The notes under the pieces: model-generated
The model's database searches: none
What the model saw: only the letters and a program-made list of their open reading frames with translations
What the model was told of the DNA's origin: nothing
DNA from: Hermatobates lingyangjiaoensis
Taxonomy: Eukaryota > Arthropoda > Insecta > Hemiptera > Hermatobatidae
Assembly: GCA_026182355.1 (NCBI GenBank)
Contig: JAPFBL010000047.1
Location: 1,054,001 to 1,118,000, forward strand
Direction: 5' to 3'
Length of the DNA stretch: 64,000 nucleotides
Translations under genes and position numbers: made by a program
Shown: in pieces, positions 3,157 through 62,071 of the stretch
How positions within the stretch are numbered: the stretch's first letter is position 1
Layout of the letters: each line of letters opens with the position of its first letter

Positions 3157-3181
3157 AAATTTTCGGGTAATCCGTCTTCAG
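3157..3181 (-). ncRNA. Hammerhead-like core, F6 copy 1
   Basis: On the minus strand CTGAAGA is followed by a short GG/CC-type hairpin, then CGAAA and AATTT. Flanking bases CTC before the core and GAG after the cleavage position pair as a 3-bp stem I. Stem II is weak here, so activity is doubtful. Confidence 0.4.
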
Positions 3182-3390
3182 GAGAAAAGAGAATGGGAGA
3201 CCAAGCACGTTGTAGACGCAACGGCAAGTAACCCAACGGTTACTTTGTATGTATTTATATTGTGTGTGTTAATGTCTTTTGCTAACCTTCTTTGGAAGCT
3301 ACCAGAGTCTCACCGCAAAGTGATACGAAAACTAGAGAGTGTCAACAAGAAACTGGTCAATGCAGAAGCTGCTGCTTATTTTAATAATAT

Positions 3391-3431
<41 letters not shown>

Positions 3432-3526
3432 CTTGATAAACGGAAAGATGATCCAAACTAGACGCAATAACAGTTAAAAATTGAAGATAGGTAGCACACA
3501 AAGTAAAGAAACACACTTACAAACTC

Positions 3527-3551
3527 AAAGTTTCGGGCAATTCGTCTTCAG
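3527..3551 (-). ncRNA. Hammerhead-like core, F6 copy 2
   Basis: Same layout as the motif at 3157: CTGAAGA..CCCGAAAC on the minus strand. Stem I is TTC/GAG, where C has become U but still pairs with G as a wobble. The stem III palindrome is lost (ACTT). Confidence 0.35.
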
Positions 3552-3990
3552 GAAAAAAGAGAAAGGGAGACCAAGCACGTTGTAGACGCAGTGGCTTGTA
3601 ACCGACACGGCAACCGCCACTGCGGCCCCCCGTTCCCGGTCTTGAAGTAATAGAATTAAGAGAAAATATAAACAGATAAGCAATACAAGTTGGGAAAATA
3701 TAAATGATTCAGAGAGAATTGAGAAAATTTTAATAAAATTTAAAAAAATAAATACAATGCAACAAAATATATCTGCAATAATCAATAAAAGGTAAGGTTA
3801 GATAAAAAGATGTAAAAGGGAAAATAGTGAAGAATGAGTGTTTTAAAAAGTAAAATAAAATATAATGTATAATGTATAGCACAAACTGGAAGTAATGAAT
3901 AAGAATGAAATAAATAAATACGTACAGAAAATTTGAGTTTGTGAGTGTGTTTCTTTACTTTGTGTGCTACCTACCTTCAATTTTGAACTG

Positions 3991-4035
<45 letters not shown>

Positions 4036-4087
4036 TTAAAAAAAACTTTGACACATAGACAGAAACATAACGAAGACTCACTTTTCA

Positions 4088-4119
4088 ATATTTCGACTAT
4101 AATGGTGGTCGTCCTCAAG
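4088..4119 (-). ncRNA. Hammerhead-like core, family F5 (degenerate)
   Basis: The minus strand reads TTGAGGA, then C, then GACC..AGTC, then GAAATATT. It is the decayed sister of the motif at 18143, where stem II is a perfect GACC/GGTC. Stem III is the palindrome ATAT. The first core base is T instead of C, so this copy is probably inactive. Confidence 0.35.
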
Positions 4120-4179
4120 ATGTTTTAAAAGATTTGTAAGGTTATCAGTACTCTGAATCAAAACAGTACTTATCGAGAA

Positions 4180-4502
4180 AAAGAATTATTTGGTTTTTGG
4201 TACATATTGAATCATCAGGAAAGTATATGAAAATGCATCATGTCATTTTTGGTACTATTTGGTACTAATATTTCTTAGTGTGAAATTGGTAATGATTGAA
4301 TCTTTGCAAATGACAAGATAATATTTGATGTAAATTCTATTATTTTTCACCAGTAGTTACGCATCGGAGATCCTAACCTTATTGCTTTTTGTATGTCAAA
4401 AGCCAAAATAAGTATTATATTGCAACGAAATTTATTCCAAGCTATTTAATATATTTATTCATGTCAATTAGGAAGTCTTGTGATACATAAATAAATAATA
4501 TA
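4180..4502. other. AT-rich intron sequence, nothing identified
   Basis: No supported feature on either strand. Confidence 0.3.
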
Positions 4503-4850
4503 TTTCTTTTTCATCGAGGTTTGGTCTAGCGTCAAACAGTACAACGTGTTTAAATCAACGTTTCGTATGTATTTATGGTTATCTTCAGGACTACGTCAAT
4601 ACAGAATCTACATCTACATCACTACAGAAAATAAGGAATGTTATAAATTACATCAATTATATATTAATATAGGTAATAATCTTGGGATTTCCCTATTATT
4701 ATTAATTATGTTTATTGTTGTAAATAATGTAACTTATAACATATTTTTTCATGTTATTTTAATTACTTTTTGTATTGATGCAGCCCTGAAGATGTTTACA
4801 AATATAGATGAAACGTTGGATTAAAGGCGTTTTACTGTTGGCTAAAAAAG
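4503..4850. mobile_element. Inverted-repeat element, family F3
   Basis: The left end reads on the minus strand CCTGAAGATAACC..CGAAACGTTG, then a tail toward TTTGACGC. The right end reads on plus CCCTGAAGATGTTTAC..GAAACGTTGGATT, then a TTTTACTGTTGG tail. The two ends face outward as an inverted pair about 350 bp apart. The same family recurs at 41215-41515 (with the same tail and a TTTCTTTATTGAGGTTT end) and once at 46950. No protein is encoded. Confidence 0.55.
4786..4817 (+). ncRNA. Hammerhead-like core, F3
   Basis: CTGAAGA, spacer T, an imperfect stem II around an ACAAATA loop, then GAAACGTT. Stem III is the palindrome ACGT with cleavage base T. Two C bases before the core pair with GG after it. 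Stem II has mismatches that the family copy at 41273 does not have. Confidence 0.4.
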
Positions 4851-7780: not shown

Positions 7781-7795
7781 TATATAAAACAGATC

Positions 7796-7936
7796 ACAGA
7801 AACTCACCACTATATTTCGAAGTCGTCATCAGGTAGAGGGATGAAGAAGTGAGTCACCCATTAGTGGTTGCCTAATAGTCACTTCTTTATCTCTTTAGCT
7901 AATGACGATGTGGTCGAAATATAGTAGTGAGTTTCT
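7796..7936. mobile_element. Inverted-repeat element, family F2
   Basis: Left arm (minus) and right arm (plus) share TCGAAATATAGTRGTGAGTT followed by TCTG, facing away from each other over a short spacer. Each arm has a CTGATGA- or CTAATGA-type core. Related single copies are at 17717, 26372, 57941 and, as a tail only, about 61125-61195. The shared tail continues TTATTTT..TGTG..TCTAGTTTA. Confidence 0.55.
7810..7832 (-). ncRNA. Hammerhead-like core, F2
   Basis: The minus strand reads CTGATGA, spacer C, GAC..TC, GAAA, then the palindrome ATAT and cleavage base A. Bases CTAC before the core pair with GTGG after it (4 bp with one G-U), giving a type I layout. Confidence 0.45.
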
Positions 7937-7944
7937 GCAATTTA

Positions 7945-8789
7945 TTTTATTCGTGTTCCTCTGTAAATCTAGTTTATTTAGTTTGTCAAATCGATTGATT
8001 TAATTGGGAAACAAAATTAGTGATATACCAACCTTAAGTTTAATTATGGCATAATACGCTTTGACCAGTATATTTGTATTTTCTATTTAAGGAAACCTGA
8101 AATAATTATCAAATACAATCGTCATTTTACATGGTAGCACTCTCCATTTTTAAATGTGGCTGTGAGTATCAATGAATAAAACAGCTGCCAGTAATTCTCA
8201 CCAGATCGGAGCTCATTTTTTATTTTGTTGTAATCCAATTTCAACAAATTGTATGGTATAAATGAAATGCAATAGTTTTTATATCTACCATTAAAATAAA
8301 TGAACAAACTATTTCTTTTGCCTAAAAGAATTAATAAAATTAATGATGTGAAATGCACGGGGCTAGTGAGGGAAGGCACAGATGTGAAAACAGAACGGTG
8401 TGACTTACTGCACCAGCCACCCTCTACCCTCTGTGCAGTATCCATAACAACATTCTGCTAACACTATAACTATATTTCCCTATAAATTTCAGTTATGTGA
8501 AACTACCGTTAATTTATTCAATTAATATTATTAATAATTAAAGGATTATTAATATTTTTGTAATATAGTAAGTTATATCCTTTCTTAAATTATTATTTTG
8601 TTTAAAAAGTACATTACTATTTGAGCATTAAAATTCAATTATGTTATCAGTTATTTTTATGTTCTCTACAGAGTCTGTCAATTGAGTAAGACTATAATTG
8701 CATTGAATGATTCAATAAGATATCATTGTATAGATTTGTTTTCTTAGATGACTGGACAGCTCTTTATCAAGGGCTGGTGTAATGTCCTT
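7945..8789. other. Intron sequence, nothing identified
   Basis: An open minus-strand frame at 8122-8445 has no recognisable domain, a low-complexity composition and no splice or promoter support, so it is not called. Confidence 0.3.
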
Positions 8790-11530: not shown

Positions 11531-11827
11531 TTCTACTGCACGGTCGATACTTCAAAACTCAGAATAGGAAAGATAACAAAAATGTAACCTACTAGACACT
11601 GTGTAAAGTAACTTCCCCACAGTTTTTAAAGACGTAGCGTCAACAATTCAGAAGAAAAAAACAAAACATGGACACAAAACAGACTTCCCAGGTAAGAAAA
11701 TTTAGATTAGTGTAGTTATAAACATTGTAAAAGATAATCATACCTAAATATGTAAATCAATAGATTATCATTAGTGTACAAAACAGCCAACAATAGACCT
11801 AATTAATTGTAATAATAATAAAACAAC

Positions 11828-11975
11828 AATATGAAATGGGAAAAAAAGACTAAGATCTTTCAACCGCAACAAGCAGTCTTCGTTAGAGTCAAAAACCCAA
11901 CTGACGAAGACCACTTGTTACGTTTGAAAGACCTTAGTCTTTTTTCCCATTTCATATTGTGGTTTGATCATTGAT
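11828..11975. mobile_element. Inverted-repeat element, family F1
   Basis: Two arms with CAATATGAAATGGGAAAA and GACTAAGATCTTTCAACCG (plus strand) mirror each other around position 11894. The right arm carries a CTGACGA core at 11901 on the plus strand. The tail GGTTTGATCATTGATTGTTA is shared with 17840, 21866, 32255 and 58764. A (TA)n tract follows at about 12029-12070. Confidence 0.6.
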
Positions 11976-12075: not shown

Positions 12076-13094
12076 TATTTATATATGCTCGCCTTGTCCT
12101 TATAGCATTTTATATTCTATAATATTTTATTATTAACAAAATATTATATTGAATTGTACCTTATTTATATTAGTTTTTATTCAAAAAGTCAACAGTATCT
12201 AGTATACAGTTAATAATAGGTTATTATTTCATAGTATTTATTCAAATACCGATTGTGTTAGGAAATCATATTGAGTCTACATTTCGGTATATACATGATT
12301 TTTTTTAAATGATTTAATAGTAAGAAATAACATGTTTATACATTGCAATCTCTTGTTGGCTTGAGTTTGACTGGAAGGATGGCCTGAGTAACATTAATTC
12401 AATGTTACTCACTTAATTCAATTTAAGCTAACTTACCAGTTCATATAAATAACTAGATTTTTTAATCGCAATTTCTTTTACATTAAAGAAAATTTAAAGT
12501 TCCTTGATGATTTAGAATATTTAACTTTAATGAGTGAAAGAGTCATTTCCGTTGACTGTTTTTAATTTATGAGAAAAAACAATTTCAAATCTCAAACTTA
12601 AATATATTTTATTAATTTAAAAAATCAAAAATAGGTACCTAAATTGAAATATTACGAACAAATATGTGAAATCATGAAACTGTCTGTGTTTTTGATGAAA
12701 AATTTCCAAATTTTAGGCGAAATTTAAAAATCTCATAGAAGCTATAATCATGTATTTCAGGTGAGCTATTTATAGCTCACAAATTATTTTTTTCATGAAT
12801 TACTGTGGGCATTAACATGGTAATACCGTTGTAATAGCAAAACAACCAACTTTTTAAGGCTGTTATGTAATAATTCGATTGTTATCCCAGGTTTATAAAT
12901 TATTTCCTTTAGTTTTCGCTCAATGTCTAAAATATATTTTTATACAGGATTATTTCAGTTTTGTTAGTTTGTTTCAGAAAAATTAAAAACCGTGATACTT
13001 GATGAGGCCGTCAGAGCTCTTGTTATTCCACTGAAATTAACATTAATGCTAATTTGTTATAATGTGATATTTACTATGATTGGGAATTTAAAAA
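12071..13094. other. AT-rich intron sequence, nothing identified
   Basis: No supported feature. Confidence 0.3.
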
Positions 13095-13395
13095 TAATAC
13101 GGCCCCACACAAACGAGTTTTATGTTAAATCTAACAACGCGTTTCAAACACTTAGTGTTCTTCTCCAGGATTACATTTCTCTGAAATACCATTTCATACT
13201 ATTTCCCCTTGTTCAAAACATCAATAGTACTATTCACAATTCCATTGATTCAATTCAATTTTCAAGTAATTCATTATTATGTTATTATAGCCCATAGAAC
13301 GTTATGTTTTTTGGATGAAAACCTGAAGAAGAACACTAAGTGTTCGAAAAGCGTTGTTTGTTTGAACATAAAGCTCTATGTGTGGAGACGTATTT
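13095..13395. mobile_element. Inverted-repeat element, family F8
   Basis: About 300 bp with outward-facing arms. The left arm read on minus and the right arm read on plus both give GAAGAACACTAAGTGTT, then a CGAAA or TGAAA step, then CGTTGTT and a tail toward CTCTATGTGTGG. Core positions in the two arms are symmetric (coordinate sum 26491). Confidence 0.6.
13323..13355 (+). ncRNA. Hammerhead-like core with perfect 6-bp stem II, F8
   Basis: CTGAAGA, spacer A, stem II GAACAC/GTGTTC around a TAA loop, GAAA. Bases AAAC upstream pair with GTTT downstream as stem I. Stem III reads AGCGTT here but CGCGTT in the mirror copy (minus, 13168-13136), where ACGCGT is a perfect palindrome; the plus copy has one substitution. 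Confidence 0.55.
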
Positions 13396-14649
13396 TGTTT
13401 TAAAAATTTCCATAATTAGTTATTACTTACACCTCTACAAAGAATTGGCTACTGTCTCAATGTGAAGTCTAAAGAATATTTAGATTATAAACTGTTTATC
13501 ATTAGGATCTAATATAACTTTTCAGAATGCTAATTAAACATCCATGATTAATCAAATCCATCCTAACATGTTGCATCATTGATTAGATACGTATAAATGA
13601 CATAAAGTATCAGTCTAATGATATTTCACGCCATTTACATTCAATTGCGTATACAAATTTCTGTGAACATAACAAAACGAACAATAATCCCTTTATATTA
13701 GCCACTTATTGATCAAGTTTCTCTTGACATAAACGAAAATTCACAACGATCCAAATACTGCGCACGCCCAAATCCCCTTTCATTAAACCCACATCATTAA
13801 AAATGAATACTCAATTTCGAAGGGACATATTGGAAGGTTAATGTAAACATTAAAGGGCTATGCAATACTGTGCTATTATACTACAGCTGGCTAAACATAT
13901 GAAGCCCAGAGTGCCTTTCTCTCTGTTGCAATTGTCTCAAAGCTTTTATAATACTAATCAATTAAGCAGAAGTGTTAACTTATTTAATTCTTTTTTTTAA
14001 TAAAAATTTATTTTTCACATTTTAAATAAGTTTTAGTGTATAATAGGCAATCAAAATTAATTATGACTTGCTATTTTTCAGTGACATTTTTCATCGTAAG
14101 CAAAAGTATTAAAGCATTTTTCTGACAAGATTAAATCAGTTATACTCGTATCCAATCGGACTGAACATACCAGTCTTATGATTTATGAGTAGTAATGTAT
14201 TATATATGAGTAGTAACTAGTGAATTATTAGATGTGTCAAATATAAAAAGTAAATGTAACATTTCTTTACTATAATTACTATATTACTATAATATACGTG
14301 TTTACTATAACTAATTTACTACATTTCGAGGAGATAAATAAGATAAACAGGATATGGCTTACTCATAAGTTCTGGCAGTAATAATAAAAAAAAATAATTA
14401 ACAGTATAAATTAATTATAATAAAATATTAAAATAACAATTAATAAGCATTTCTTAGAGATTTTCTGTCGATATCAAGATCGTGATATATCTTTTGAACG
14501 AGAAAACGTGACCTAAACGTGTACATAAATGTGTAAACATGTTTTACACAGTATGTGTAAAAGATATATAATTTCATTTACACATATGAAGCGTAAAAAT
14601 GCCTCAATTTAGTAGTTTGAAGGGTTTACTATGAAACATTTTTTCCCAT
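13396..14649. other. AT-rich intron sequence, nothing identified
   Basis: No supported feature on either strand. Confidence 0.3.
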
Positions 14650-17839: not shown

Positions 17840-17995
17840 TAACAATGATCAAACCAATATATCAAATTGGGTATCAACTGACGACCCAACTGAGTCGTCA
17901 GTTGGGTTTTTGACTCTGACGAAGACCGCTTGTTACGGTTGAAAGATCTTAGTCTTGTTTTCCCATTTCATATTGTGGTTTGATCATTGATTATA
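17840..17995 (+). mobile_element. Family F1 element, best-preserved copy
   Basis: Begins AACAATGATCAAACC and ends GGTTTGATCATTGATTAT. The left arm has been partly replaced by a GACGACCCAACTGAGTCGTC palindrome. The right arm carries the intact hammerhead-like core at 17914. Confidence 0.6.
17914..17948 (+). ncRNA. Hammerhead-like ribozyme candidate, all three stems, F1
   Basis: CTGACGA (consensus CUGANGA), one spacer base A, stem II GACCG/CGGTT (5 bp with one G-U) around a CTTGTTA loop, GAAA, then self-complementary AGATCT as a stem III that would form between two molecules, and cleavage base T. GACT before the core pairs perfectly with AGTC after it (stem I, 4 bp). Known hammerheads normally have a G-C pair straight after the conserved GA; the spacer is the main departure. 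Self-cleavage is untested. Confidence 0.6.
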
Positions 17996-18082: not shown

Positions 18083-18141
<59 letters not shown>

Positions 18142-18142
18142 G
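17996..18142. repeat. AT-rich and (TA)n/(CA)n low-complexity tract
   Basis: Runs of TTTATTTATA, a short ACACACACA stretch and a (TA)n tract from about 18098 to 18138. Confidence 0.8.
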
Positions 18143-18175
18143 GCGGAGGACGACCGCCATTACGGTCGAAATATT
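18143..18175 (+). ncRNA. Hammerhead-like core, F5
   Basis: CGGAGGA, spacer C, stem II GACC/GGTC around GCCATTAC, GAAA, palindrome ATAT and cleavage base T. The second core base is G instead of T. It directly abuts a (TA)n tract. Confidence 0.45.
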
Positions 18176-18362
18176 GAAAAGTATGTCTTTGTTATGTTTC
18201 AGTCTGTGTGTCACTATATATTTTAAGAGGTATATATATATATATATATCTTTATAAATAAAATAATGATTTTGTCTGTACATTGCTCAGAACTGACTCA
18301 TTTCAAGTGTTCTTTACGTTTCATACATTGGAGAAACCGAATCCACCCTTAGAAAAATTTCT

Positions 18363-21824: not shown

Positions 21825-21851
21825 CCGTCAAAGACGGGTACATTTGCTAGT
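21825..21851 (+). mobile_element. Helitron-like 3' terminus (plus)
   Basis: Hairpin CCGTCAAAGACGG (21825-21837), nine bases, then CTAG (21847-21850) followed by T. The flanking sequence is (TA)n. Confidence 0.75.
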
Positions 21852-21865
21852 ATATATATAAATCA

Positions 21866-22045
21866 ATGATCAAACCACAATATGAAAAGGAAAACAAGAC
21901 TAAGATCTTTCAACCGTAAGAAGTGCTCTTCGTCAGAGTCAAAAACCCAACTGATGACTCAGTTTCAACCGCTTATTACGGTTGAAAGATCTTAACCTTG
22001 TTTTCCCATTTAATATTGTGGTTTGATCATTGATTGTTATTATAC
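21866..22045. mobile_element. Inverted-repeat element, family F1
   Basis: Both ends carry AATCAATGATCAAACCACAA or its complement, and both arms contain GACTAAGATCTTTCAACCG or its complement. The left arm (minus) has CTGACGAAGAGC..; the right arm has lost the CTGACGA piece. It is flanked by short TA-rich DNA. Confidence 0.6.
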
Positions 22046-24080: not shown

Positions 24081-26371
24081 TTTTTATTTTCCCAGTGGTT
24101 TGGCTTTATGCATGTATATATATCTTGATAATAGTATCAACTGTAAATTAAAAACCAAATAAGATTTACCGTTGCTCAGTCAGTTTTTCAGGTAGGAATT
24201 AGGTTGAAATCAGAGAGAAACAGGCAACCTCACAAGACCTGTTTGAAGAACTGACCGAGTCTTGATAAATTTCTTTCATTTTCCGTATAGATATATCTTT
24301 ATATATGTATAAATTATAAATATAAATTTATATATTTGTAGGTGTATTATTTAATCATATATTTATATATAAGTTATTTTTTCCTGTGACTTCTGCATTG
24401 ACTAGCTTTTTGCTGATGACTTACAATTTACGTAATACTTGTCTTTGGGTTTGCTGTTATCTTCATTATTGCATTTTTATTATTGTAATTAATTTAAAAC
24501 AGACTTTTGGTTACACATAGAACACCACAAGATTTGAATTTAATTAATGGTGTAAATCTAAAATAAAAACAATAATGCATAATGCAAGCAATATGATGGC
24601 AAACTTAAATGGAGGTGGGAAGGTCGGAGAAGGGAGGCAGGGGGTGCCATAAGCTACGACCTCTCGGCTATTCGCCTCTCTGAACTAGCCAACATAATTC
24701 TAATTATCTAATAATCCTTAAGTCACTGGTAAAATTCTTACAGCTAGGCACTCTATAGAAATTACTACTCCAGATGTTAGAGTTCAGGTTCTGGTCTTTA
24801 ATATACAGACCCTCTAAAATTGATTGTCTTTTAGTGTCAAAATATTTAAATACTGTAGCACAATACTCCCTCCTGTCAGCAGTTGTCAGTTTATTTCCCG
24901 TGATAAACATCAGTATAACATTTATTAGCTCCTGAAGAATGATTGAGATTGGAAATTTTTAATAGAACAATAAACAAACTCAAACAGCTCTTTATATATA
25001 ATGGTTCCTGTAAAAAATTGAGAGATTATTTTATCAACCAAAGAAATCATCAGGGTAAAGAAGAAGATACTGAAAGCAGCAGTTACAGGATTTATTATAA
25101 AAATCAATTTTGAAACAATTATAAAATTTATGAAAGAGTGTTAAAGCGAATAATAACAAGAAATGTCAAGTGCAACCGACCAGCAGATTAACTAAAAATA
25201 TGTGTGTGTTATGAAAGTATGACCACAGCTCAGCAAATCATTACAAATAGAGTGCAGCCACTTCTCCAGCAAAACTAACCTAATATAAGTGTTTACTTGT
25301 CCTACTGGAAACTGCGAGTTCCTAATTCCCTTATACATTCGGTCCACAATAATAACCCATTCTAGACGCCTGATTATGCACCTTTCTGCGGGAGCCACTA
25401 AAGGAGCGCCTTTCTAAAGATTACATGAAACAATTCCACAGGGAAACTCTGGTAAAAAGCACAAAAGTTTTTGCTCACCAAAATTATGAAAAATGGCCCA
25501 GAATTCCTATTCATTTTAGAAAAATCTCCACAGATAATAGCCAAACATCGAAATTGAATAGAGTTGTAAAACTTTTCGCATATGTCCAGCCACCAATAGA
25601 TTAAAAAAAAAAAAAAAAAAAGAAGCAGAATTTAGGTAGAACTCACTCCCAGCAACGAGGGAGTATTTGAACATCCTTCCACCACGCATGCTGTCAGCTA
25701 CTCTCACAAAACCAATAGTGTACATCAACCTGATAATGGTCTTTTGAAGGACCAAATCTGTGGATTTACATAGTTATGTTAAATCAGAAATTATAAGATA
25801 AGGAAAGAAGTTTGTGTATGAATACTATATAAGTTTAATAGAATGAATTATTGACAGTTGCTGCATTTGCTACCTCAGACTACAAAAGAAGCAATAATAA
25901 AACTGGAAAATCTTTCCAAAAAACAAATGAAAGTAGAAATAAGAGGGGCATTTATTTATAAATATATATATAACAAGATTTAACATAAACACGTTAAATT
26001 GTAAACACATAACCATTGGAAATGGTTTCAATTGAAAAGTCACTCTGAGAGCTTCAGAAGAAGCACTTATCAGTCTTCTGAGAGCTATATCTGCTCCTTG
26101 TCTTAAACTCAATCGTTGATTATTCCTTTGATTTATTTTAGGCTGTTGATTAATCTTTTGTTTACTTATTTTTATGTTTAGTTGGGTTTTAATTATAATG
26201 TGTTAATAGTTTTTATTTAAATGTTTTCATTCGTTTATTATTTATTTTGCTTTTATTACTTCATCTATCCTTGTCCACCCTCCCTTTGTAAGTGGTCTAC
26301 ACTGTTTGAGTGCTTCTTCAAGTCCACCAGCCAGTCGTTGCTAGTATTCTGAGCGATTCACATCTATCTTC
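24081..26371. other. Intron sequence; F12 fragments at 24140-24290
   Basis: The piece 24140-24290 has inverted GCTCAGTCAGTTTTTCAGGT and CTGACCGAGTCTTGATAAAT ends of family F12. The rest holds no supported feature; an A run lies at about 25603-25621. Confidence 0.35.
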
Positions 26372-26430
26372 CTGATGACAATATAATCGAAATATAGCAG
26401 AGAGTTTCTGTTTCATTTCTGTGTGTTCGT
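26372..26430 (+). ncRNA. Hammerhead-like core, F2, intact CTGATGA
   Basis: CTGATGACAATATAATCGAAA then TATAG and the tail GAGAGTTTCTG. The core (26372-26397) keeps CTGATGA and GAAA with palindrome ATAT; stem II (GA..TC) is poor. Confidence 0.4.
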
Positions 26431-26868: not shown

Positions 26869-26996
26869 GTATGCCTAGACCATAATATTCGATTACTTTT
26901 ATAATATATATACTCGTACATATATATATATATATATTCAATGTTTTGTTATTGAGGGCTAGGTCAAGTAAAAGAAAATAAACTCCTTTCTAGGCC

Positions 26997-41214: not shown

Positions 41215-41515
41215 ACTTTTTTTCTTTATTGAGGTTTCGTCCAGCGTCAAACAGTAAAACACTACTAAGCAAAAGTTTCGTCCATATTTGTAGACATCTT
41301 CAGGGCTATATATATACAGAAAGTAATTGCAGTAACATGAAATGATATATAAATTACATTATTTATATAAATATAAATTATTATTGTTTCTTTATGCTAC
41401 TGTAATTAATTTCTATATTGATGTAGTCCTTATGCTGTCTATAAATATAGATAAAATGTTAGCATTGTGGTGTTTTACTGTCTGACGTTGGACCAAACCT
41501 CAATAAAGAAAAATA
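41215..41515. mobile_element. Inverted-repeat element, family F3
   Basis: Ends TTTCTTTATTGAGGTTTCGT and its near complement face each other about 300 bp apart. Inner tails GTCAAACAGTAAAACAC and GTGTTTTACTGTCTGACG are mirrored. The left arm keeps the hammerhead-like core. Confidence 0.65.
41273..41303 (-). ncRNA. Hammerhead-like core, F3
   Basis: On minus: CTGAAGA, spacer T, stem II GTCTA/TGGAC (5 bp with one G-U, loop CAAATA), GAAA, then CTTTT where sister copies have the ACGT palindrome. Stem III is therefore lost in this copy. Confidence 0.4.
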
Positions 41516-41554
41516 GTGTTGAATATATGTGGTCGAGATAAAAAAAACAATATA

Positions 41555-46949: not shown

Positions 46950-47010
46950 TCTATCTTCAATAATACAATACCTTTAAGCCGACGTTCCGTCTATATTTGT
47001 AGATATCTTC
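46950..47010 (-). mobile_element. F3 fragment with hammerhead-like core beside (TA)n
   Basis: On minus: CTGAAGA, T, ATCTACAAATATAGAC (4-bp stem II TCTA/TAGA, loop CAAA), GGAACGTCGG. The GAAA is GGAA and the flanking stem I is weak, so this copy is decayed. It abuts the TA tract ending near 46940. Confidence 0.45.
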
Positions 47011-48954
47011 AGGTATACATAAATACAGAATTTAATTACAATTACATAAAAAATAATTATATTCGTTATTTAATTAATATACATAATTACCTTGCTATTT
47101 TTCTATTGTGAGGAAGCAACTAGATAACGGTTTTTGTTCAAATCAGTTCGTGTGCTACACTAGTGACCTTTTTTAAACCTTCTATATCAGATTTGGTAAC
47201 TCAAAACTACCGTAAAAACTCATTAAAACTATATCAAAAAAGAACCAGGAACATTCAAAAAAGAAGGAAAACATTCAAATATATATATATATATATATAT
47301 GCATATTGCAAAAAAGTAAAGTAGCAACATTAATGAACAGTACAGATGGAATGCATTCCTTATGGTTACGACTATCACAGAGGGTATCATAAGCAGTGTC
47401 TAGTGATGTGCGAGGAAACTGTACTCAGATCTAAGTTGATTTCAGTTTAGCTGGTGATTTTCTTCATTTTTGTTTGTTTTTTATTCTGTGTAGTTCTGAT
47501 AAACCACATTGCATTGGATGCTCATATTTATGATATATATTGGTGTTGATTGTCAACGAGATTTACATTTAACATTCTTGATTGAAGCTCATGGCAGTTT
47601 CATGACCTTTGAGCTTATATTCTTCACAAGTTTTACCTTTGACGGTGAAACATTGGCAGAGCATTGTCTCAAATATATTGAAAATACAATATTCAGTCAT
47701 AATAGGTTTTTTTTTCTTTCAGTGTAATATAAAAAATATTGATATCACACGCTTTATGAAATCTTTATTATTCAATTCATTCCTAAGAAACTTGGGTGAT
47801 TTTTTAGCCTATAAATTAAAAAATACCAATTAAAACATAAACTGCTAAAAACAATTAAAGAAATAAACAAACAGTATGTAGGGAGGGAAAAGAGGAAAAC
47901 ATTTTTTATCTTTTCAGAAGCTAAATGTGTGCTGCTCTAGTGTTTTACAAAGTAGGGTTCTTTTATTCAAAAAGACTATGTCCGAGATTCTGAAGAAAAA
48001 TTCAAACAAATGTATAATAAATAATGTGGATGCTAACGAATGAACTGAGGTATTTTTTTAAAAATAATGTTCTATCTGAGTCATGTAAGACCTGAGCACA
48101 GTGGAGTAAAGTCAGCGTTGAATCACATCCAACCACTATCAATCGCTAAGGATTGTTCTATGAATTTAATACTTCGAAACTTGATAAAGATTGTTCTAGA
48201 AAGAGTTTTTTATGTGGCTGAGATAAAACAAAATCATTATCATTGGATTTTTGTTCTCACAGATGACAAGTATCACTCTTGGAGACAATTTTTCTGTATC
48301 TGTGAGGAATGAGATTACGAAGTTGGATAAATGTCTCTAACAAAAGGGTAGACCATGCAGACATATTTTGGTTGTATTTTGGGTTAATAGCAAATTTGAT
48401 GAAAAGGGGTTTTCACAAAGGGAACTAAGAATAGTTTTATTAGTGTATGCAGGATCGCAACTGATGTAGTGGTGCACATTTAAAAGTTTGGAGAGGAGCT
48501 TAACTTAAGTTATTCTTAAGTAGAAGAATAACTGAGTTCAGTTGAGAAATCAGAAAGGACAGAAAGGATCTCTGTAAAATGTAGGCTGGAGACAAATAAG
48601 GAATGCATAGGAAATCAAGCTCTATGAAAGCAGAGATCTATTTACTAGGTAACCAGAAGTAGACAACTAGTAATGGGATTGCCAGGTATTTCAAAGAGTT
48701 TAAGATTTTTTTAAATAGAACACAACATGCAAGGTCGAATGGTATCACAACTTCTCGACTGTGACTATCAATATGAGTATAGGAGTCTGGAATATCAACA
48801 AATGTTTGATGTCATTGAAAGTAGAATGATAGGAAAACAGTTTGTGCAAATAATGGTTACCTAGTAATTCAACCCTTAATAGTGCTGATCATAACACCAT
48901 AATCAATCATAACTAAAACTGGATTGGAATTGACAAAACTTATACGCGAGTACT
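47011..48954. other. Intron sequence, nothing identified
   Basis: A short (TA)n run at about 47280-47300; no other feature. Confidence 0.3.
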
Positions 48955-48966
48955 TCGCACTTCTTC

Positions 48967-48993
48967 CCGATGACGACGGATGTCGAAATATCG
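48967..48993 (+). ncRNA. Hammerhead-like core, family F4
   Basis: CCGATGA, spacer C, stem II GAC/GTC (loop GGAT), GAAA, palindrome ATAT, cleavage base C. CTTC before the core pairs perfectly with GAAG after it (stem I). The second core base is C instead of T. The tail TGAGTTCTGTAGTGTCTTTC matches 61355-61480. Confidence 0.5.
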
Positions 48994-49019
48994 AAGTGAG
49001 TTCTGTAGTGTCTTTCTGT

Positions 49020-51599: not shown

Positions 51600-52715
51600 T
51601 TGACGCCTGTAGATAATTCTGTAGGTTGAATGTTCATTTTATTTATTTTTTAGTATGTTTTATAGAATAGAATAAAATTGTGTGCAGAAGTATGTTATAT
51701 CTATCCTTCTTTGGTAGGAGTCATCTCATACCTGAGAAATAGGGTAGGAATCACGCTATTGATACATAATAATTTGTTGTTTATTAAGAAACTTGATAAA
51801 TGTTTGGCTTTATAAATTCGTAGACAAATATTTGCAGGAGATTATTTTTAAAATTGAATATGGCCATGAGTTAAATTGCAAAGATTGACATTGTCAATGG
51901 ACTGGTCAGCGTTGAGCGGCTAGCCTAATTTAATTGTATACTGTGGACTGAGATTAATTTCAACTTTAGTCGATTGAATAAAACATAAAGATTGGAAGAA
52001 ACAATTATATTGGGGACAAGTGTGAGTAGAGGTTGGAGAAAGTGTTAGTATTGTGCGGACTAATGGATGGTGGGGGAGAGATTTAAGGAAGGAAACAGGT
52101 TTAGAGGGGAGGCGGCGGGTTCTTTCCAATATATTGGGTTGAGTGGCAGCCCTTGGCCCTTATCCGCAGTCTCATTACCACTACACTCGCCACTTCTGCC
52201 AACTGGCCCTTTCTTCTAACCACCGACTCCTGCTAAACCACTCATGCAAAATTAAACCACTACAGCACTAACATTAGCAGCAACCTTTCAAACTCAATGC
52301 TAATTAAATAAAGTACCTAATACTTTAAATAATATTACACTTTTTTATGTAGTTTGCAAAAAAAAATGGTTACACCTAGAGTCACAAGATAATTAATTTA
52401 GTACAATGCCACTTAAGACTATTCATTTACAATGACATTGATCTGATTTAGTGACGACTAAACCGAAATTTAAAAATAAAACTAAACATTTTACAATTCA
52501 TCATTTACTGCTTTGGATACAGCTTTAAAAAAAATACTCATCACTCTTCCATTTTAAAAAAGTGTTTTTTCTATCAAGGTTTCGGTAATGTAACAAATAA
52601 TACGTGAATGACTGCTATATATCCAAGAAAATGTAGATTTTTCTTGTCTTTTATAGATTTTTTTGTTTACTTTAATTTTTACATTTTTATGATATTTAAA
52701 GGTATTATGACATCC
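51600..52715. other. Intron sequence, nothing identified
   Basis: A purine-rich island at about 52000-52120; no supported gene. Confidence 0.3.
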
Positions 52716-52748
52716 CTGAGGATGTCATAAAAAATAAAACGAAACGTT
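52716..52748 (+). ncRNA. Hammerhead-like core, family F11
   Basis: CTGAGGA, spacer T, GTC..AAC region with poor stem II, GAAA, palindrome ACGT, cleavage base T. CUGANGA is intact. Confidence 0.35.
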
Positions 52749-53028
52749 GACAAAAAAAAGATGATTTCAAATAAGCAACCCTGACTAAATTCCGAGAAGA
52801 AGAAAAGTATTTTTTCGTTATATATTATATATATATATATATTGGTATACTTTGGGAGCAGACCTTCTTTTAAACATACCTCATTAAAGATCTTGCCAAC
52901 ATTAAGTTTAGTATGTTTCCTACATACCTTTTCAAGGTTTCGAATGCTACCTTTCCATCTCTGTGGTACCATATAAATTAACTCACCGATTTTTTTATCT
53001 TTCATTGTATTTTTCATATTACATTTCC

Positions 53029-53058
53029 GACGTTTCGGTCTACGTTGACCATTTTCAA
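53029..53058 (-). ncRNA. Hammerhead-like core in left PLE arm
   Basis: Mirror of the core at 54698. See that entry. Confidence 0.45.
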
Positions 53059-53261
53059 GGATTCTATATACAAGGTTTTTTTAAACAATTCTAATAAATA
53101 CTTATTTACAATGACAATTACCTCACTTCTATCAAACATAACTAATAATAAAATATTCTTTTAAAAAACACTACCTTAATAAACATGAGTAACAGGTTTG
53201 CTACAAAATTCCCTACATGAACATTTACACAACATTATTTAAATCACTATATAGTTATTTT

Positions 53262-53782
53262 TCACGAATGTAACTTTAAAATTCTGGAAAAACAACAGGA
53301 CTGATCATTAATGTTCGGCTTCTTTTCCTTTATGCATAATGATTCAATTATATGCAGCCTCGTGTGATTATTTTCTGCATATAATACTTCAATGTTGTCT
53401 TCCAGCATTTTTCTACTTAGCCTGCTTTTATGTATGTTCATTGTGTGTTCTTTTGGTCCTCCAGCTGCGAGATGCATCGTAAGTCTGCGTGAAAGTGTTG
53501 TCGTCGTAGAACCAATGTAGCTCGATTTTAGGAGCTCACAGTCTCCTATAGTGCAATTATATCTGTACACTACATTGGTTTTTTGTAGTTGTGTTTTTTG
53601 TTGTAGGTTGTTCCTAATTATCATATTTGCTGTGCAGGAACTCTTGTAGTAAATACTAATATTTAGCTTGTCTGCCGAGTTAACACATGTTGTATTTCTT
53701 TTAATTATGGCCTTTAAAATTCTTTCATCCTTTTTATATTCATTAGAGAATTGATTCTTATAATACACCGTTTGTATTCTTC
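53262..53782 (-). pseudogene. PLE endonuclease (GIY-YIG), left copy
   Basis: About 168 codons in one open frame, 5' truncated at the palindrome centre. Order: YYKNQFSNEYKKDERILKAI, CVNSADKLNISIYYKS, VVYRYNCTIGDCELLKSSYI, then GSTTTTLSRRLTMHL, and HIIESLCIKEKKPNIND at the end with the catalytic Glu and a conserved Asn. One residue (YYKSS against YYKSF) separates it from the right copy in the part I compared. Reverse transcriptase is missing, so it is a 5'-truncated insertion. Confidence 0.85.
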
Positions 53783-54494
53783 AATTAAGGCACTTATACA
53801 TAGAGCATTCAAGACATCGTCTGACTGGCTTCTCTTCGACCAAGCAGTAGAAAGGATTAAACAAGTATTGGTCAACAATGGTTATAGTAACCAACACTTC
53901 GACAATATTTTAAGGAAATATATGAAGAATATAAATTCAAACAATAATCAAGAGCATCAGCTGGGTGAAGAAGGAAGAATACAAACGGTGTATTATAAGA
54001 ATCAATTCTCTAATGAATATAAAAAGGATGAAAGAATTTTGAAGGCCATAATTAAAAGAAATACAACATGTGTTAACTCGGCAGACAAGCTAAATATTAG
54101 TATTTACTACAAGAGTTTCTGCACAGCAAATATGATAATTAGGAACAACCTACAACAAAAAACACAACTACAAAAAACCAATGTAGTGTACAGATATAAT
54201 TGCACTATAGGAGACTGTGAGCTCCTAAAATCGAGCTACATTGGTTCTACGACGACAACACTTTCACGCAGACTTACGATGCATCTCGCAGCTGGAGGAC
54301 CGAAAGAACACACAATGAACATACATAAAAGCAGGCTAAGTAGAAAAATGCTGGAAGACAACATTGAAGTATTATATGCAGAAAATAATCACACGAGGCT
54401 GCATATAATTGAATCATTATGCATAAAGGAAAAGAAGCCGAACATTAATGATCAGTCTTGTTGTTTTTCCAGAATTTTAAAGTTACATTCGTGA
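53783..54494 (+). pseudogene. PLE reverse transcriptase tail and GIY-YIG endonuclease, right copy
   Basis: Same endonuclease as the left copy, with about 60 more codons upstream: HRAFKTSSDWLLFDQAVERI, KQVLVNNGYSNQHF, ILRKYMKNINSN, which resembles the segment after the reverse transcriptase core of Penelope elements. VYRY/YIG, Arg of LSRRL, and Glu and Asn of ESLCIKEKKPNIND are present, so the nuclease fold could be intact. The Met at the start of the open frame belongs to the left arm read in reverse and is not a real start. The stop is at 54494. Confidence 0.85.
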
Positions 54495-54697
54495 AAAATA
54501 ACTATATAGTGATTTAAATAATGTTGTGTAAATGTTCATGTAGGGAATTTTGTAGCAAACCTGTTACTCATGTTTATTAAGGTAGTGTTTTTTAAAAGAA
54601 TATTTTATTATTAGTTATGTTTGATAGAAGTGAGGTAATTGTCATTGTAAATAAGTATTTATTAGAATTGTTTAAAAAAACCTTGTATATAGAATCC

Positions 54698-54727
54698 TTG
54701 AAAATGGTCAACGTAGACCGAAACGTC
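54698..54727 (+). ncRNA. Hammerhead-like core in right PLE arm
   Basis: TTGAAAA (two changes from CUGANGA), spacer T, perfect stem II GGTC/GACC (loop AACGTA), GAAA, palindrome ACGT, cleavage base C (GTC). TCC before the core pairs with GGA after it. Placement 3' of the endonuclease frame fits a PLE terminal ribozyme; core changes suggest reduced activity. Confidence 0.5.
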
Positions 54728-54908
54728 GGAAATGTAATATGAAAAATACAATGAAAGATAAAAAAATCGGTGAGTTAATTTATATGGTACCACAGAGATG
54801 GAAAGGTAGCATTCGAAACCTTGAAAAGGTATGTAGGAAACACTAAAAATAGAAATTTTTTTTTCTATAGTAGAAATACTAAACTTAATGTTGGCAAGAT
54901 CTTTAATG

Positions 54909-54910
<2 letters not shown>

Positions 54911-54957
<47 letters not shown>
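54911..54957. repeat. (TA)n microsatellite at PLE boundary
   Basis: About 46 bp of TA directly at the end of the PLE arm. Confidence 0.92.
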
Positions 54958-57846: not shown

Positions 57847-58015
57847 AAATTAAATAAAACAATACCAAGAATTATGTAACCTAAATTCACAGAAAGTACA
57901 CACATTAATGAGAACACAACAACAATTAATATACATCTATCTGATGATGAGGTAGTCAAAATATGGTAGTCAATTTCTATAATTTATATTATATGTGTAT
58001 ATTATGTGATTATAG

Positions 58016-58725: not shown

Positions 58726-58763
<38 letters not shown>

Positions 58764-58766
<3 letters not shown>

Positions 58767-58970
58767 CAAACCACAATACGAAAAGTTGAAAACAAGACTA
58801 AGATCTTCCAACCGTAACAAGCGGTCTTCATCAGAGTCAAAAACCCAAATGATTTGACTCAGACGAAGACCGCTTGTTACAGTCGAAAGATCTTAATCTT
58901 GTTTTCCAATTTCATATTGTGGTTTGATCATTGATTGTTATTTCAAGTGTTTATGTGAAATCTTATATAT
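58764..58970. mobile_element. Inverted-repeat element, family F1
   Basis: Begins GATCAAACCACAATACGAAA straight after (TA)n and ends GGTTTGATCATTGATTGTTA. The left arm (minus) reads CTGATGAAGACCGCTTGTTA; the right arm (plus) reads CAGACGAAGACCGCTTGTTA. Each arm is slightly decayed. Confidence 0.6.
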
Positions 58971-59297: not shown

Positions 59298-59635
59298 ATA
59301 TATATATATATATATACCTAAACTACCAGGGCAAATAGAAAAATCAATAAGTATAAATATTCATAAGTTGAATATTGGAGATGGTATGTACACAAAAATC
59401 TTTATCCTTGCAGATAATCGTTTGGAAGCTGGCTTCAGACATTAATGGTGAAATGCAGGCTATATTCCGGGCATTTACCAAAATTATGAGAAAGTGTTGA
59501 ACATTGGGAAAGATTGCACTCTTTTTTGATTCCAGGGCTGCAATATTGTTGATGGATATCTACAAATTCTGCGAAAATTTGAAAATTATTCATTGTATAA
59601 AATTCCATCGTATTGCAATAGATCCCTGGAAGCGA
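59298..59635. other. Sequence of mixed composition, nothing identified
   Basis: Possibly part of the degraded coding piece that follows; no motif seen. Confidence 0.25.
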
Positions 59636-59842
59636 TGATATCTATGTTAATGAGGAAACGGATAACCTGGAAAAAATAGAAGCTACCATGGACAATAACC
59701 CTATCCCATTGACTCTAACTGAGTGTAAGAGGCATATCGGGAATCTTACTAGGCGAAGTGAACAGCAGCCCAAAGGACTGACGCAGTCAGGAAACTCAAA
59801 AAACTTCTATAGACACCAGAGTGTGGCATAATTTTGATTGAT
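59636..59842 (+). pseudogene. Unidentified coding relic
   Basis: An open frame without Met reads PGSDDIYVNEETDNLEKIEA, then TMDNNPIPLTLTECKRHIGN and LTRRSEQQPKGLTQSGNSKN, ending at a TAA. Composition is coding-like (rich in E, D, T, N and K, low in AT-run residues) and stops follow in quick order. It may be a remnant of a transposase or other domesticated sequence; I do not recognise the family. Confidence 0.3.
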
Positions 59843-61299
59843 AACCGGTTCGACTGTCTGCCGAACACCTTCACAGCACAGAAGCGGCGATAGATCCAAA
59901 CGAAAGGGGATTGACACACACCACCACTCTTGCCGTCTGCAGGGGGTTGCCGGACCATCAACTACACTGGGATGGATGGAATTATACTAGGACTGTTAAC
60001 TTCTTTGCATCACGAACATTTAGGATTATAATACTGAAAATTTTGCATTTCAAACTAAATATTATTTTTTCTATATATTTAACATATATCAGGTAACATC
60101 AAAGTTTAAACCACAGTGAGAAATTTAGTAATGAGATTATAACCTTTTGATGAAAGTTATGGTCCTTGTCATGGTCAAATGATTAATTGATTTTGAATTA
60201 CATAGTTTGATTACGACGAGAAATTATTTTTTTGTAAGATCTTACTTCTATGTTTAATTTATTGCATAAGTTTTAGTTTTCCTTTGAACGGTTTTGCGGT
60301 AAAATCTCATTATATACATTACATTTACAAAAAATATATGTATAAATTACATATTGTAACATTTAGCTAAAGTTTAATATAACTGCATTATTAATATGAA
60401 TGTGACGTCCGTTTGAAACAAGAAAGAGAAAAGTAATACAAGTTTGTCTTATTTAAGTTGAATTGGGTAATGTAGTTTTTAACTCGTCAAAAGTTGATGT
60501 GCCGCTCTCAAGGGTGTTTTATTCGGGAAGCAGATCGTTAGTGTAGCTTAACATCACCCAAAACTACCAACTTCTCAATCCCCTTTCTATCATTTGTTTC
60601 GATAACCACTTCTCTTACATACACTTGCCTTATCTTTATTCACTTATTGAATGTTTCAGTAAATTACTTAGGAATTCCAATACATATATTTTGTTTTTTA
60701 TATATATATATATAACTTACATAAAACAAACTTAAATTGTATCAGAACAAGGTCAGTTCTTCAGGTATATATTACATAGCAATACCAATTGTTATAAAAA
60801 CATTTCTGCTTTTTTGCTAATAAATTTTAATTTTCTCACTATCTACAGTCACCCACTATCTGGTAGGATCATCGACAGAAGCACTGGGTTAACAAACCCT
60901 ACACAATTAAAAGGTAATGGTTTATATTTATAGCATGTAAATGTACATTTTAATTATACGCTTGTATAATTAATTATAGTTAAAACATTTGTAATACAGT
61001 TATTTATGAGAATATTATTCATAAATATATATGTATGCATTGAATAGAAACAAAAACATGAATGGAACCTGACACGAGGATTCATTTCAAAATGTTGGCC
61101 CTTTTAATGCGCACCCTCAACCAGCAGTAGTGAATTTCTGTGATTTATTTTATGTGTGCTCTTAATTAAATCTAGTTTATGTAAAAACTAGATTTTATAT
61201 AAATAAAACACACTCATTCTTTGTGTTTTTTTATATATCTTTGTGGCTTATGCTTTAATATACATATACTTCAAATAAAATGAAAGGTCCGTGTGGACA
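59843..61299. other. AT-rich sequence with F12 and F2 fragments
   Basis: At 60700-60770 a (TA)n run and an F12 end (minus: TATACCTGAAGAACTGACCT). At 61125-61195 an F2 tail. No gene, and no upstream DDR exon, was found. Confidence 0.35.
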
Positions 61300-61480
61300 T
61301 AGAAAACTTTAACAAATAGGAAACAACACAGAAAGTTACTACAGAACTCAATTCGATATTTCGACATCTGTCGTCATCGGGAAGAAGTTTGCACAGTAGC
61401 AGTTTGCGCGTCAACCCGAGTACTTCACACTTCTCCCCGATGACGACGGATGTCGAAATATCGAAGTGAGTTCTGTAGTT
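61300..61480. mobile_element. Inverted-repeat element, family F4
   Basis: Left arm (minus 61380-61355) and right arm (plus 61437-61463) each carry CCGATGACGAC..GATGTCGAAATATCGAA and the tail GAGTTCTGTAGT. Arms face away from a central block of about 55 bp. It abuts the (TA)n tract at 61488. Confidence 0.6.
61437..61463 (+). ncRNA. Hammerhead-like core, F4
   Basis: Same layout as 48967: CCGATGA, C, GAC/GTC, GAAA, ATAT, C. Stem I has one mismatch here (CTCC against GAAG). Confidence 0.45.
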
Positions 61481-61483
61481 AAA

Positions 61484-61487
<4 letters not shown>

Positions 61488-61516
<29 letters not shown>
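61488..61516. repeat. (TA)n microsatellite
   Basis: About 28 bp of TA between an F4 element and a PLE fragment. Confidence 0.9.
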
Positions 61517-61549
61517 GTTTTGTTAAAAATTATGCCAATTTGTATTCTT

Positions 61550-61860
61550 GTCGTTTTGCAAGGACAATGTTCTACAGCAACAACATTATCCAGGAGATTA
61601 ACATTGCACCTGACTGCAGGTGCCCCGAAAGACCACACTCAGAGCACTCATAGTCTCAAACTAACCAGGGAAAAAGTGAATCAAAATATTCTTGTACTTT
61701 ATCAAGAGAATGACCAGAGAAGACTACAAAATTTTGGAAGCACTCTTCATAAGAGAGAAGAAGCCGAACCTGAACAATCAGACCACGAGCTTCACAAGAA
61801 TATTAAAACTGCACGCAGGGACGTAAGGTGTTAAGTTCAAGCCCTGATTAAGTTCAAAGT
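61550..61860 (+). pseudogene. PLE endonuclease fragment (GIY-YIG, C-terminal part)
   Basis: Starts at GQCSTATTLSRRLTLHLTAG, close to the YIG motif, then APKDHTQSTHSLKLTREKVN and ILVLYQENDQRRLQ. At about 61733 a frameshift moves the remainder to another frame, ILEALFIREKKPNLNNQTTS then FTRILKLHAGT, with the catalytic Glu and the conserved Asn. The upstream part is replaced by (TA)n. It is a relative of the 53-54 kb family (LSRRLTMHLAAGGPKEHT), clearly diverged. Confidence 0.8.
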
Positions 61861-62041
61861 GTTAGTGCTTTTAGTTAATAACATCCATGGACACAAGAAC
61901 CTATCATAACCTGTGTAAAACTCCCACTCAATTTATGTAAACATTTCTTATTCAGATAGTATGTTCAACAATTTAGATAGTTTTCATTAGTATTTGAGTT
62001 AAGTTATTATCTAGTTAAAAACTCTCTAAAGACTCCCTTCC

Positions 62042-62071
62042 CTGATGATAGTCAAAGCTGACCGAAACGTT
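62042..62071 (+). ncRNA. Hammerhead-like ribozyme candidate downstream of PLE endonuclease
   Basis: CTGATGA intact, spacer T, stem II with GTC/GAC, GAAA, palindrome ACGT, cleavage base T. TTCC before the core pairs perfectly with GGAA after it (stem I, 4 bp). It lies about 190 bp after the endonuclease end, the same order as in the 54 kb copy. Confidence 0.55.

Follow-up and report, generated by a model that had tools for sequence, protein, structure and literature searches.

Hammerhead motifs in head-to-head repeats of the Hermatobates lingyangjiaoensis genome and their probable origin from Penelope-like elements

A 64,000-nt stretch of the genome of the hemipteran insect Hermatobates lingyangjiaoensis (assembly GCA_026182355.1, contig JAPFBL010000047.1, positions 1,054,001 to 1,118,000; hereafter the window) carries many short sites with the plan of a hammerhead ribozyme, the stems of which covary well above controls. 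We consider it probable that these sites are minimal type I hammerheads lying in the pseudo-long terminal repeats (pseudo-LTRs) of several lineages of GIY-YIG Penelope-like elements (PLEs), which were inserted by a two-ended mechanism. The dozen or so families are best read as pseudo-LTRs of such lineages and not as an independent RNA family. Many sites belong to pairs of inverted, head-to-head arms that are truncated on the 5' side and bordered on the outside by (TA)n, an anatomy missed by the original prediction made from the same window, and nearly every labelled pair in the two best-counted families, A and B, has one short and one long outer end.

Hammerhead motifs, covariation and the link to Penelope-like elements

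With 54 occurrences in the window and 19.9 expected, the motif CTGANGA shows a 2.7-fold excess that was reached by none of 100 shuffles. A strict descriptor (stems I and II of at least 3 pairs, GAAA, a palindromic stem III, then a non-G base) retrieved 4 sites with an exact core, compared to a mean of 0.0 in 60 shuffles, and 7 sites in all when up to one core mismatch was allowed (shuffle mean 0.12). A scored descriptor retrieved 8 sites (mean of 0.1 over 100 shuffles). Since these descriptors yield only 4 to 8 sites, well-formed hammerheads are few and confined to families A, B and C. A covariance model, R1 (36 positions, 8 pairs), was trained on six window sites with loops shortened in five, and gave 24 matches at E<0.1, rising to 28 at E<0.25. 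These E-values are rough, and the 24 matches include the six training sites, several near copies of those and one match without supporting context (302-345). Matches outside the training families include sites of families D (7807, 26368), E (3153, 3523) and J (4083). Altogether about 12 labels, assigned by eye, have a hammerhead or a remnant of one: A, B, B', C, D, J, E, F, G, G2, I and a poor one at 37557.

The hammerhead-like plan, the 20 or more sites and the dozen families of the original prediction are thereby borne out, and R1 recovered all seven stem I examples that it had named; five of these were in the training set, whereas 3157 (E 0.004) and 7810 (E 0.003) were not. Among its stem II pairings, GGTC/GACC is found at 54694 and 53025, but the site at 62042 has AGTC/GACC with an A.C mismatch at the base. 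Its palindromic stem III is imperfect at 13323 (AAGCGTT), the partner site at 13132 having ACGCGT. Its statement that outer sequences are otherwise unrelated was too strong because families C and D have downstream sequence in common, and not every CTGANGA site is a hammerhead. The CTGAAGA sites at 14707, 58512 and 60764 were rejected, as family H arms place them in a tail downstream of a hammerhead, and the plan is absent at further sites such as 17878, 22847, 24413 and 34576.

The core CUGANGA..GAAA with stems I and II is present in the window, with variants in some families: U3-A8 and, in family C, CCGATGA (U4 changed to C; 48967, 61351 and 61433). The single motif at 27059 is predicted to fold into hammerhead stems I and II, and this plain two-stem fold was obtained for two of five motifs folded (27059 and 54694). 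Given the palindromic stem III, cleavage would presumably need a dimer; such hammerheads reportedly 'cleave RNA as dimers' (a statement attributed to Lunse, Weinberg and Breaker, 2017). The Rfam hammerhead families gave no match in the window, neither at the gathering threshold nor at E<=10; minimal PLE-type hammerheads may fall outside these models, being devoid of a stem III loop. Sub-threshold Rfam matches to microRNA hairpins on both strands (26992-27099 and 58630-58705) are caused by palindromes.

Covariation was examined in the window and 74 further loci, where R1 gave 225 matches at E<=0.02. In the best 150 of these, comprising 45 distinct sequences, 90.9% of paired cells can pair compared to 64.0% in shuffles, and the covariation score was 0.695 compared to 0.213, values reached by none of 500 shuffles; controls with a slid structure gave at most 0.095. 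The alignment was fitted to the model structure and its rows are related copies. A search of the whole assembly (910 Mb, 1,629 contigs) with the pattern CTGANGA-N(8-20)-CGAAACGTHGG gave 11,679 exact matches and none with the reversed pattern. Core pair 3-8, which is not among the pairs modelled in R1, is C-G in these 11,679 copies, U-A in 4,412, U-G in 474 (4 with the reversed control) and C-A in 511, that is, 16,091 Watson-Crick pairs versus 985 wobble or mismatched ones; these counts are of copies, not of independent events, and leave out the G-C and A-U states. At least three stem II types occur among ten U-A sequences inspected. The checks proposed in the original prediction (a covariance model, a genome search and a covariation test) support covarying stems, and the 11,679 and 4,412 matches, which take in ACGT-type stem III alone, reveal that the density it had called notable in one intron is genome-wide. 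Covariation at U3-A8 and the U4C change are natural core variants that were already published, and the latter slows cleavage in vitro, according to the accessible part of PMC3088659.

The supposed link to dimer-type hammerheads of PLEs was also supported. Remnants of PLE reverse transcriptase and endonuclease share the window with the hammerheads. The frame at 53763-54491 has 154 homologues at E<=0.001, the best at E 6.9e-66 and 50% identity. Among the 120 homologues listed, the Pfam reverse transcriptase domain (PF00078) is found in 7 and GIY-YIG (PF01541) in 18; the closest homologue contains reverse transcriptase and then GIY-YIG segments just under the curated cut-offs (E 3e-6 and 3e-4), and another among the matches listed comes from a barnacle. 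This domain pair marks canonical PLEs (PMC11167929). A Pfam search of the window PLE pieces themselves matched no PLE domain. PLE endonuclease sequence is directly followed by a hammerhead at two places (54694-54731 and 62038-62075). In the first, the stop of the frame is followed by the 3' untranslated region (UTR), the hammerhead, a further stretch that is probably the start of the next open reading frame (ORF), and a (TA)n run. Arms of family I occur as portions of PLE copies, both window PLE copies have the U3-A8 core, and the family B arms grade into longer 3' ends. Viral contigs were scanned by pattern and by PLE alignment, and nothing was found.

Head-to-head arms and their unequal ends

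Self-comparison placed many window hammerheads inside short palindromes, the best of which (26935-27156) consists of two 109-bp arms with a predicted folding energy of -191 kcal/mol. Neighbouring motifs are oriented accordingly: within 600 bp, the first 100 of the 11,679 genome places gave 20 minus-plus (-+), 2 ++ and no +- neighbours, and the first 100 of the 4,412 U3-A8 sites gave 21 -+ and one -- neighbours within 2.5 kb. A family B anchor that is independent of the hammerhead gave 35 -+ neighbours within 1 kb and no other orientation (first 100 of 1,219), so that 70 of the 100 anchors are paired. At family A loci, neighbours within 500 bp were 32 -+, 6 +-, 3 ++ and one --. The centres between family B arms (searched up to 800 nt) range from 45 to 590 nt and have different break points, and their variation in length and break point makes the elements look like separate events and not one transposed unit. 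Of 58 pairs, 55 have a (TA) run at each end, target duplications being unreadable inside (TA)n, and among 38 window sites 22 are followed by (TA)n. Once a palindromic copy is complete, its hammerhead motif would lie hidden within a long hairpin.

The two outer ends of a pair usually differ. Family B has one short terminus and one about 36 nt longer in 33 of 34 head-to-head pairs and no long-long pair, and family A has mixed ends in 23 of 25 labelled pairs, 7 further pairs being unlabelled (binomial test against one half, 4e-9 and 2e-5, respectively). When ends in the ACGT-type families were called by a tail motif, 46 of 58 pairs were mixed, none long-long and 3 unclassified, and a reference-free method found 47 of 58 asymmetric, 8 symmetric and 3 without (TA)n on one side; the family B sets overlap across the 34-pair, motif-rule and reference-free counts. 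Four of the 8 symmetric pairs (L046, L064, L066 and L071) are long/short by the motif rule. Inverted head-to-head pseudo-LTRs and an optional 30-40 nt tail at one end, both features of PLEs, are thus present here.

The inner ends have a polarity as well. In family B, measured against one real long copy (L025) that itself belongs to a counted pair, it is the short-tailed arm that extends farther upstream in 26 pairs and the long-tailed one in 3, with 4 ties, or 23 to 3 if only differences above 3 nt are considered. The window PLE pair (53974-54914 and 52876-53782) agrees with family B in that its short-end copy reaches farther inside.

In several ACGT-type families (B, B2, G2 and their relatives; loci L001-L081), the long tails have a common motif near GGTCAAGAA/GGTCAATAA between the two start sites; it was not seen in families A, H and K. 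The motif is possibly a putative protein-binding site.

The arms of single elements were compared over 25 elements, in which the median divergence was 0.026 within and 0.041 between elements. In five long symmetric elements (L010, L017, L078, L031 and L036), chosen after the fact, the arms differ by a single substitution plus 4 indels over 1,017 nt, compared to a between-element median of 4.1%; in two elements of similar length (L014 and L060), they differ by 5 and 12 substitutions. A common template for both arms is likely for some elements.

The hammerhead and PLE features of the window are as follows (coordinates within the window).

26935..27156: 222-bp palindrome of family B, its arms 99.1% alike around a 4-nt centre, found by inverted self-match; the right arm has a long tail and runs on to about 27187
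27059..27098, plus strand: family B hammerhead (GCC/GGC, GATGTA/TACATC, ACGT), found by descriptor and R1 (training site); predicted cut after C and before GGCC
26993..27032, minus strand: family B hammerhead of the left arm, found by descriptor and R1
17912..17954, plus strand: family A hammerhead (GACT/AGTC, GACCG/CGGTT, AGATCT), found by descriptor and R1 (training site)
32316..32358, minus strand: family A hammerhead in a lone arm with a long tail, inner end abutting (TA)n
11814..11972: family A head-to-head element, left end short and right end long, hammerheads at 11848-11890 (minus) and 11897-11937 (plus), both decayed
21850..22045: family A head-to-head element, left tail short and right tail long, hammerhead at 21898-21940 (minus)
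58762..58931: family A head-to-head element, left tail short and right tail long, hammerheads at 58796-58838 (minus) and 58856-58898 (plus)
61338..61479: family C head-to-head element with unequal outer ends, hammerheads at 61351-61384 (minus) and 61433-61466 (plus), core CCGATGA (U4C)
48963..48996, plus strand: family C hammerhead in a lone arm (48944-49031), found by descriptor and R1 (training site)
13087..13404: head-to-head element of family F with 70% likeness between its arms, hammerheads at 13132-13172 (minus) and 13319-13359 (plus)
35981..36203: family F-like head-to-head element, decayed hammerheads at 36150-36190 (plus, E 0.24) and 35997-36031 (minus, E 2.4)
4535..4839: family B' head-to-head element (GTCTA/TATAGAC type), hammerheads at 4553-4592 (minus) and 4782-4821 (plus)
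41215..41517: family B' head-to-head element, hammerhead at 41268-41307 (minus)
46963..47016, minus strand: family B' decayed hammerhead, R1 E 0.23, (TA)n downstream
3153..3185, minus strand: family E hammerhead (CTC/GAG, AATT, 2-bp stem II), (AT)n 93 nt downstream
3523..3555, minus strand: second family E copy in the same orientation as 3153..3185, the copies 84% alike
7784..7950: head-to-head element of family D with 73% likeness, hammerhead at 7807-7836 (minus) and a weak one at 7895-7927 (plus, E 7)
26368..26400, plus strand: family D hammerhead, R1 E 0.008
57937..57969, plus strand: family D decayed hammerhead, R1 E 0.18
4083..4122, minus strand: family J hammerhead-like site, GAAATAT type, R1 E 0.09, (TA)n downstream
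18140..18179, plus strand: second family J copy, R1 E 1.3, its surroundings matching those of the 4083 copy at 83%
62038..62075, plus strand: family G hammerhead, R1 training site, about 200 nt past a PLE endonuclease piece on the same strand and likely the 3' pseudo-LTR of that piece
61571..61814, plus strand: PLE endonuclease fragment, tblastn with PLE homologues, E 1e-15
53974..54914, plus strand: PLE copy, the part common with its partner, with the end of the endonuclease, 3' UTR, hammerhead 54694-54731 (core TTGAAAA, U3-A8; R1 training site) and a short end at (TA)n
52876..53782, minus strand: inverted PLE partner copy, 96% alike, hammerhead at 53025-53062 (minus), outer end about 35-40 nt longer and inner end about 190 nt shorter than in the partner
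37557..37591, minus strand: hammerhead-like site (TTGAAGA, GGGT/ACCC, ACCGGT, poor stem I), R1 E 3.9; the frame upstream (37712-38077, minus) looks PLE-like by eye only, tblastn and Pfam giving no support
52712..52751, plus strand: decayed family G2 arm (CTGAGGATGTCATAAA..GAAACGTTG), R1 E 2, recognised by likeness to G2 arms
24958..25484, plus strand: decayed PLE remnant, tblastn E 1e-18

Other repeats were observed in the window. A 355-bp inverted repeat (6866-7220 and 7429-7783) is 99.4% identical, and a Mos1-type helix-turn-helix frame (7026-7448; Pfam HTH_48, 1.6e-11) starts in its left arm and spans the centre. Nested inverted duplications occupy 18248-21760 (18248-18793 with 20415-21003, 91.5%; 19654-20415 with 21002-21760, 92.8%) and contain 147-bp and 8-bp tandem repeats. 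Tandem repeats of 129-136 bp are located at 19148-19504 and 31645-32069, about 80% alike between the two places, and a 60-bp tandem repeat with 3.9 copies (51352-51592) lies within a 112-codon minus-strand open frame.

Insertion mechanism, copy ends and alternative explanations

Two start sites of reverse transcription, bounding a tail of 30-40 nt, were mapped in vitro for a PLE, and both target strands were cleaved and extended (PMC11167929). The short and long termini seem to fit these two sites, and they fit two-ended target-primed reverse transcription better than self-priming. In such a scheme, the PLE protein would nick both strands of an AT-rich target. One strand would prime reverse transcription at the inner start site and give the short end, and the other would prime at the outer site, about 36 nt further, and give the long end. 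Both complementary DNAs (cDNAs) would be copied from the same or a very similar RNA and run toward its 5' end, stopping at variable points. Joining of their 3' ends would then produce a head-to-head insertion whose two termini differ, one being short and the other long.

Genomic copies of families A and B were examined for an accumulation of ends at the hammerhead cut, and none was found. Family A arms were collected through an anchor downstream of the cut, and 5 of 95 were dropped for short upstream sequence. Only one of the remaining 90 ends within 2 nt of the cut (one of 83 labelled arms), and 42 end 49-54 nt upstream of it, near TCAGTTGGG (41 of the 83 labelled arms at 49-55 nt). The TCAGT near these ends resembles the arthropod initiator, a likeness suggesting that the arm end may be the 5' end of the RNA. 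A separate group of 8 of 41 long-tailed family A arms ends 11-17 nt before the cut, beside stem II. Of the 1,219 family B anchors, 1,053 retain the 9 nt that precede the cut and 1,138 retain 9 nt, two of them degenerate, beyond it; the 7% difference comprises ends at or just before the cut as well as unequal decay, for instance at CpG. As few copies end at the cut, most templates were apparently not cleaved there, so that the ribozyme probably has its function at another stage of the cycle, such as the processing of tandem transcripts. In agreement with the genomic copy ends, unprocessed RNA was the main substrate in vitro; the same study reports that no RNA-seq reads start or stop at the cut (PMC11167929).

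Several observations weigh against two-ended insertion of uncleaved templates or weaken its support. Exceptions to the rule of one short and one long end are a short-short pair in family B, one long-long and one short-short pair in family A (the latter being the window element that holds the 17912 hammerhead), and 9 of 58 pairs that are short-short by the motif rule; in at least four of these nine (L003, L009, L010 and L011), the tail is without the motif, yet the (TA)n runs start 32-36 nt apart. The polarity of inner ends is weak in family A, where the short-tailed arm reaches farther in 13 pairs, the long-tailed arm in 7 and neither in 3, and PAc, the element studied in vitro, used its start sites without a strand difference (PMC11167929). 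Mean arm divergence is higher within elements (6.9%) than between them (6.3%), the former being inflated by asymmetric junctions in L024, L025, L033 and L071. Two family H arms in the window (14707 and 58512) begin within a few nucleotides of the expected cut, and the pre-cut sequence is lacking in 2 of 11 arms of family H and in 2 of 16 of family K. Most loci were selected for an intact hammerhead, and many window sites are unpaired or decayed. Two measures of covariation were weak: change on both sides was seen in 8 of 8 pairs, a result also reached by 27 of 500 shuffles, and the 22 further pair types were equalled in 64 of 500.

Head-to-head pairs could also arise by self-priming, in which one cDNA, or an antisense template, folds back at the palindrome and copies itself. 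An antisense template was proposed in the accessible part of a study on Adineta vaga (PMC3846280), many centres are hairpin-like with few nucleotides between the arms, and in some long elements the two arms are almost identical. A single copied cDNA would not readily yield outer ends that differ and recur (33/34 and 23/25), unless the second strand stopped at a fixed place. Self-priming moreover predicts that the first strand is both long-tailed and farther-reaching, whereas the short-tailed arm reaches farther in 26 of the 29 unequal family B pairs. Since fold-back of a single cDNA predicts neither the unequal ends nor this polarity, the record speaks against its simple form, and we regard self-priming as unlikely. 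It is also rather improbable that the copies are non-autonomous retrozymes or elements resembling short interspersed elements, with a hammerhead-driven circular-RNA cycle of their own and PLE machinery acting in trans. Type I hammerheads and small size recall metazoan retrozymes as described in the accessible part of PMC7229834, and no PLE frame was tied to the arms of families such as A and K, for which no systematic search was made. Retrozymes are, however, tandem direct repeats delimited by hammerheads, an arrangement that was not found: -+ order dominates with few ++ neighbours, and copies rarely end at the cut. The grading of B arms into longer 3' ends and the origin of family I arms within PLE copies speak against them as well.

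Inverted arms with TA flanks would also be expected of foldback DNA transposons or miniature inverted-repeat transposable elements inserted at TA, the hammerhead likeness being a by-product of their terminal inverted repeats. This explanation is largely contradicted and very improbable: precise, equal terminal inverted repeats were not found, as inner ends are variable and outer ends mostly unequal, and the one-sided tail, the PLE sequence inside one member and the covariation of the hammerhead core are at odds with it. Chance matching in AT-rich repeats, which may account for several individual CTGANGA sites together with tail sequence, is hardly credible for the whole in view of the shuffle and reversed-pattern controls and the covariation.

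Relation to known elements and meaning

Earlier work has already established minimal PLE hammerheads and their activity as dimers, as well as head-to-head pseudo-LTRs and tails. Minimal PLE hammerheads that cleave RNA as dimers are described in the accessible parts of PMC7761336 and PMC11620745; the motifs found here resemble them in core, very short or palindromic stem III, pseudo-LTR location and dispersal in thousands of copies. They differ from these reports in that many dispersed motifs are paired head-to-head arms and in the presence of a U3-A8 core at 4,412 sites and of a U4C family. Both core variants are common to the natural variants in the accessible part of PMC3088659, with the difference that high-copy families carry them here. 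PAc (Poseidon of Anolis carolinensis, PMC11167929) is likewise a GIY-YIG PLE with a hammerhead at the ORF start, AT-rich targets, two start sites bounding a 30-40 nt tail, and cleavage and extension of both target strands in vitro; its start sites showed no strand difference there, whereas the insertion ends described here nearly always differ. As far as the accessible part of PMC3846280 goes, the Penelope families of Adineta vaga have inverted head-to-head pseudo-LTRs with palindromic junctions and a 31-bp tail optionally at one of them. That part of the paper does not contain the word hammerhead, proposes self-priming and reports low copy number; the counted rule of one short and one long end sets the present case apart. 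Metazoan non-LTR retrozymes (accessible part of PMC7229834) also have type I hammerheads in small repeats, but form tandem repeats and circular RNA, in contrast to the mostly inverted pairs and uncleaved templates seen here.

A literature search that left most subscription papers outside its reach found no statement of one short and one long end per insertion and no test of the cut site on genomic copies. Further steps of PLE insertion are 'yet to be validated experimentally' (PMC11167929), and the in vivo activity and role of PLE hammerheads are 'still a mystery' (accessible part of PMC7761336). A wider reading, for which we see the case as evenly balanced, would be that PLEs generally integrate from two ends and asymmetrically, with both start sites used in each event, one per target strand, and the two cDNAs united in head-to-head order, that many dispersed minimal hammerheads of animals are its products, and that the ribozyme has its role outside template trimming. 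On this reading, the ribozyme is conserved, down to a covarying core pair, though most templates appear uncleaved, and its selected role would be other than the trimming of templates before they are copied. With more than 10,000 hammerhead-bearing sites of PLE type, this one genome constitutes a fossil record in which questions on PLE insertion and on the ribozyme become testable by counting ends, and the counts so far speak against simple self-priming and against template trimming by the hammerhead.

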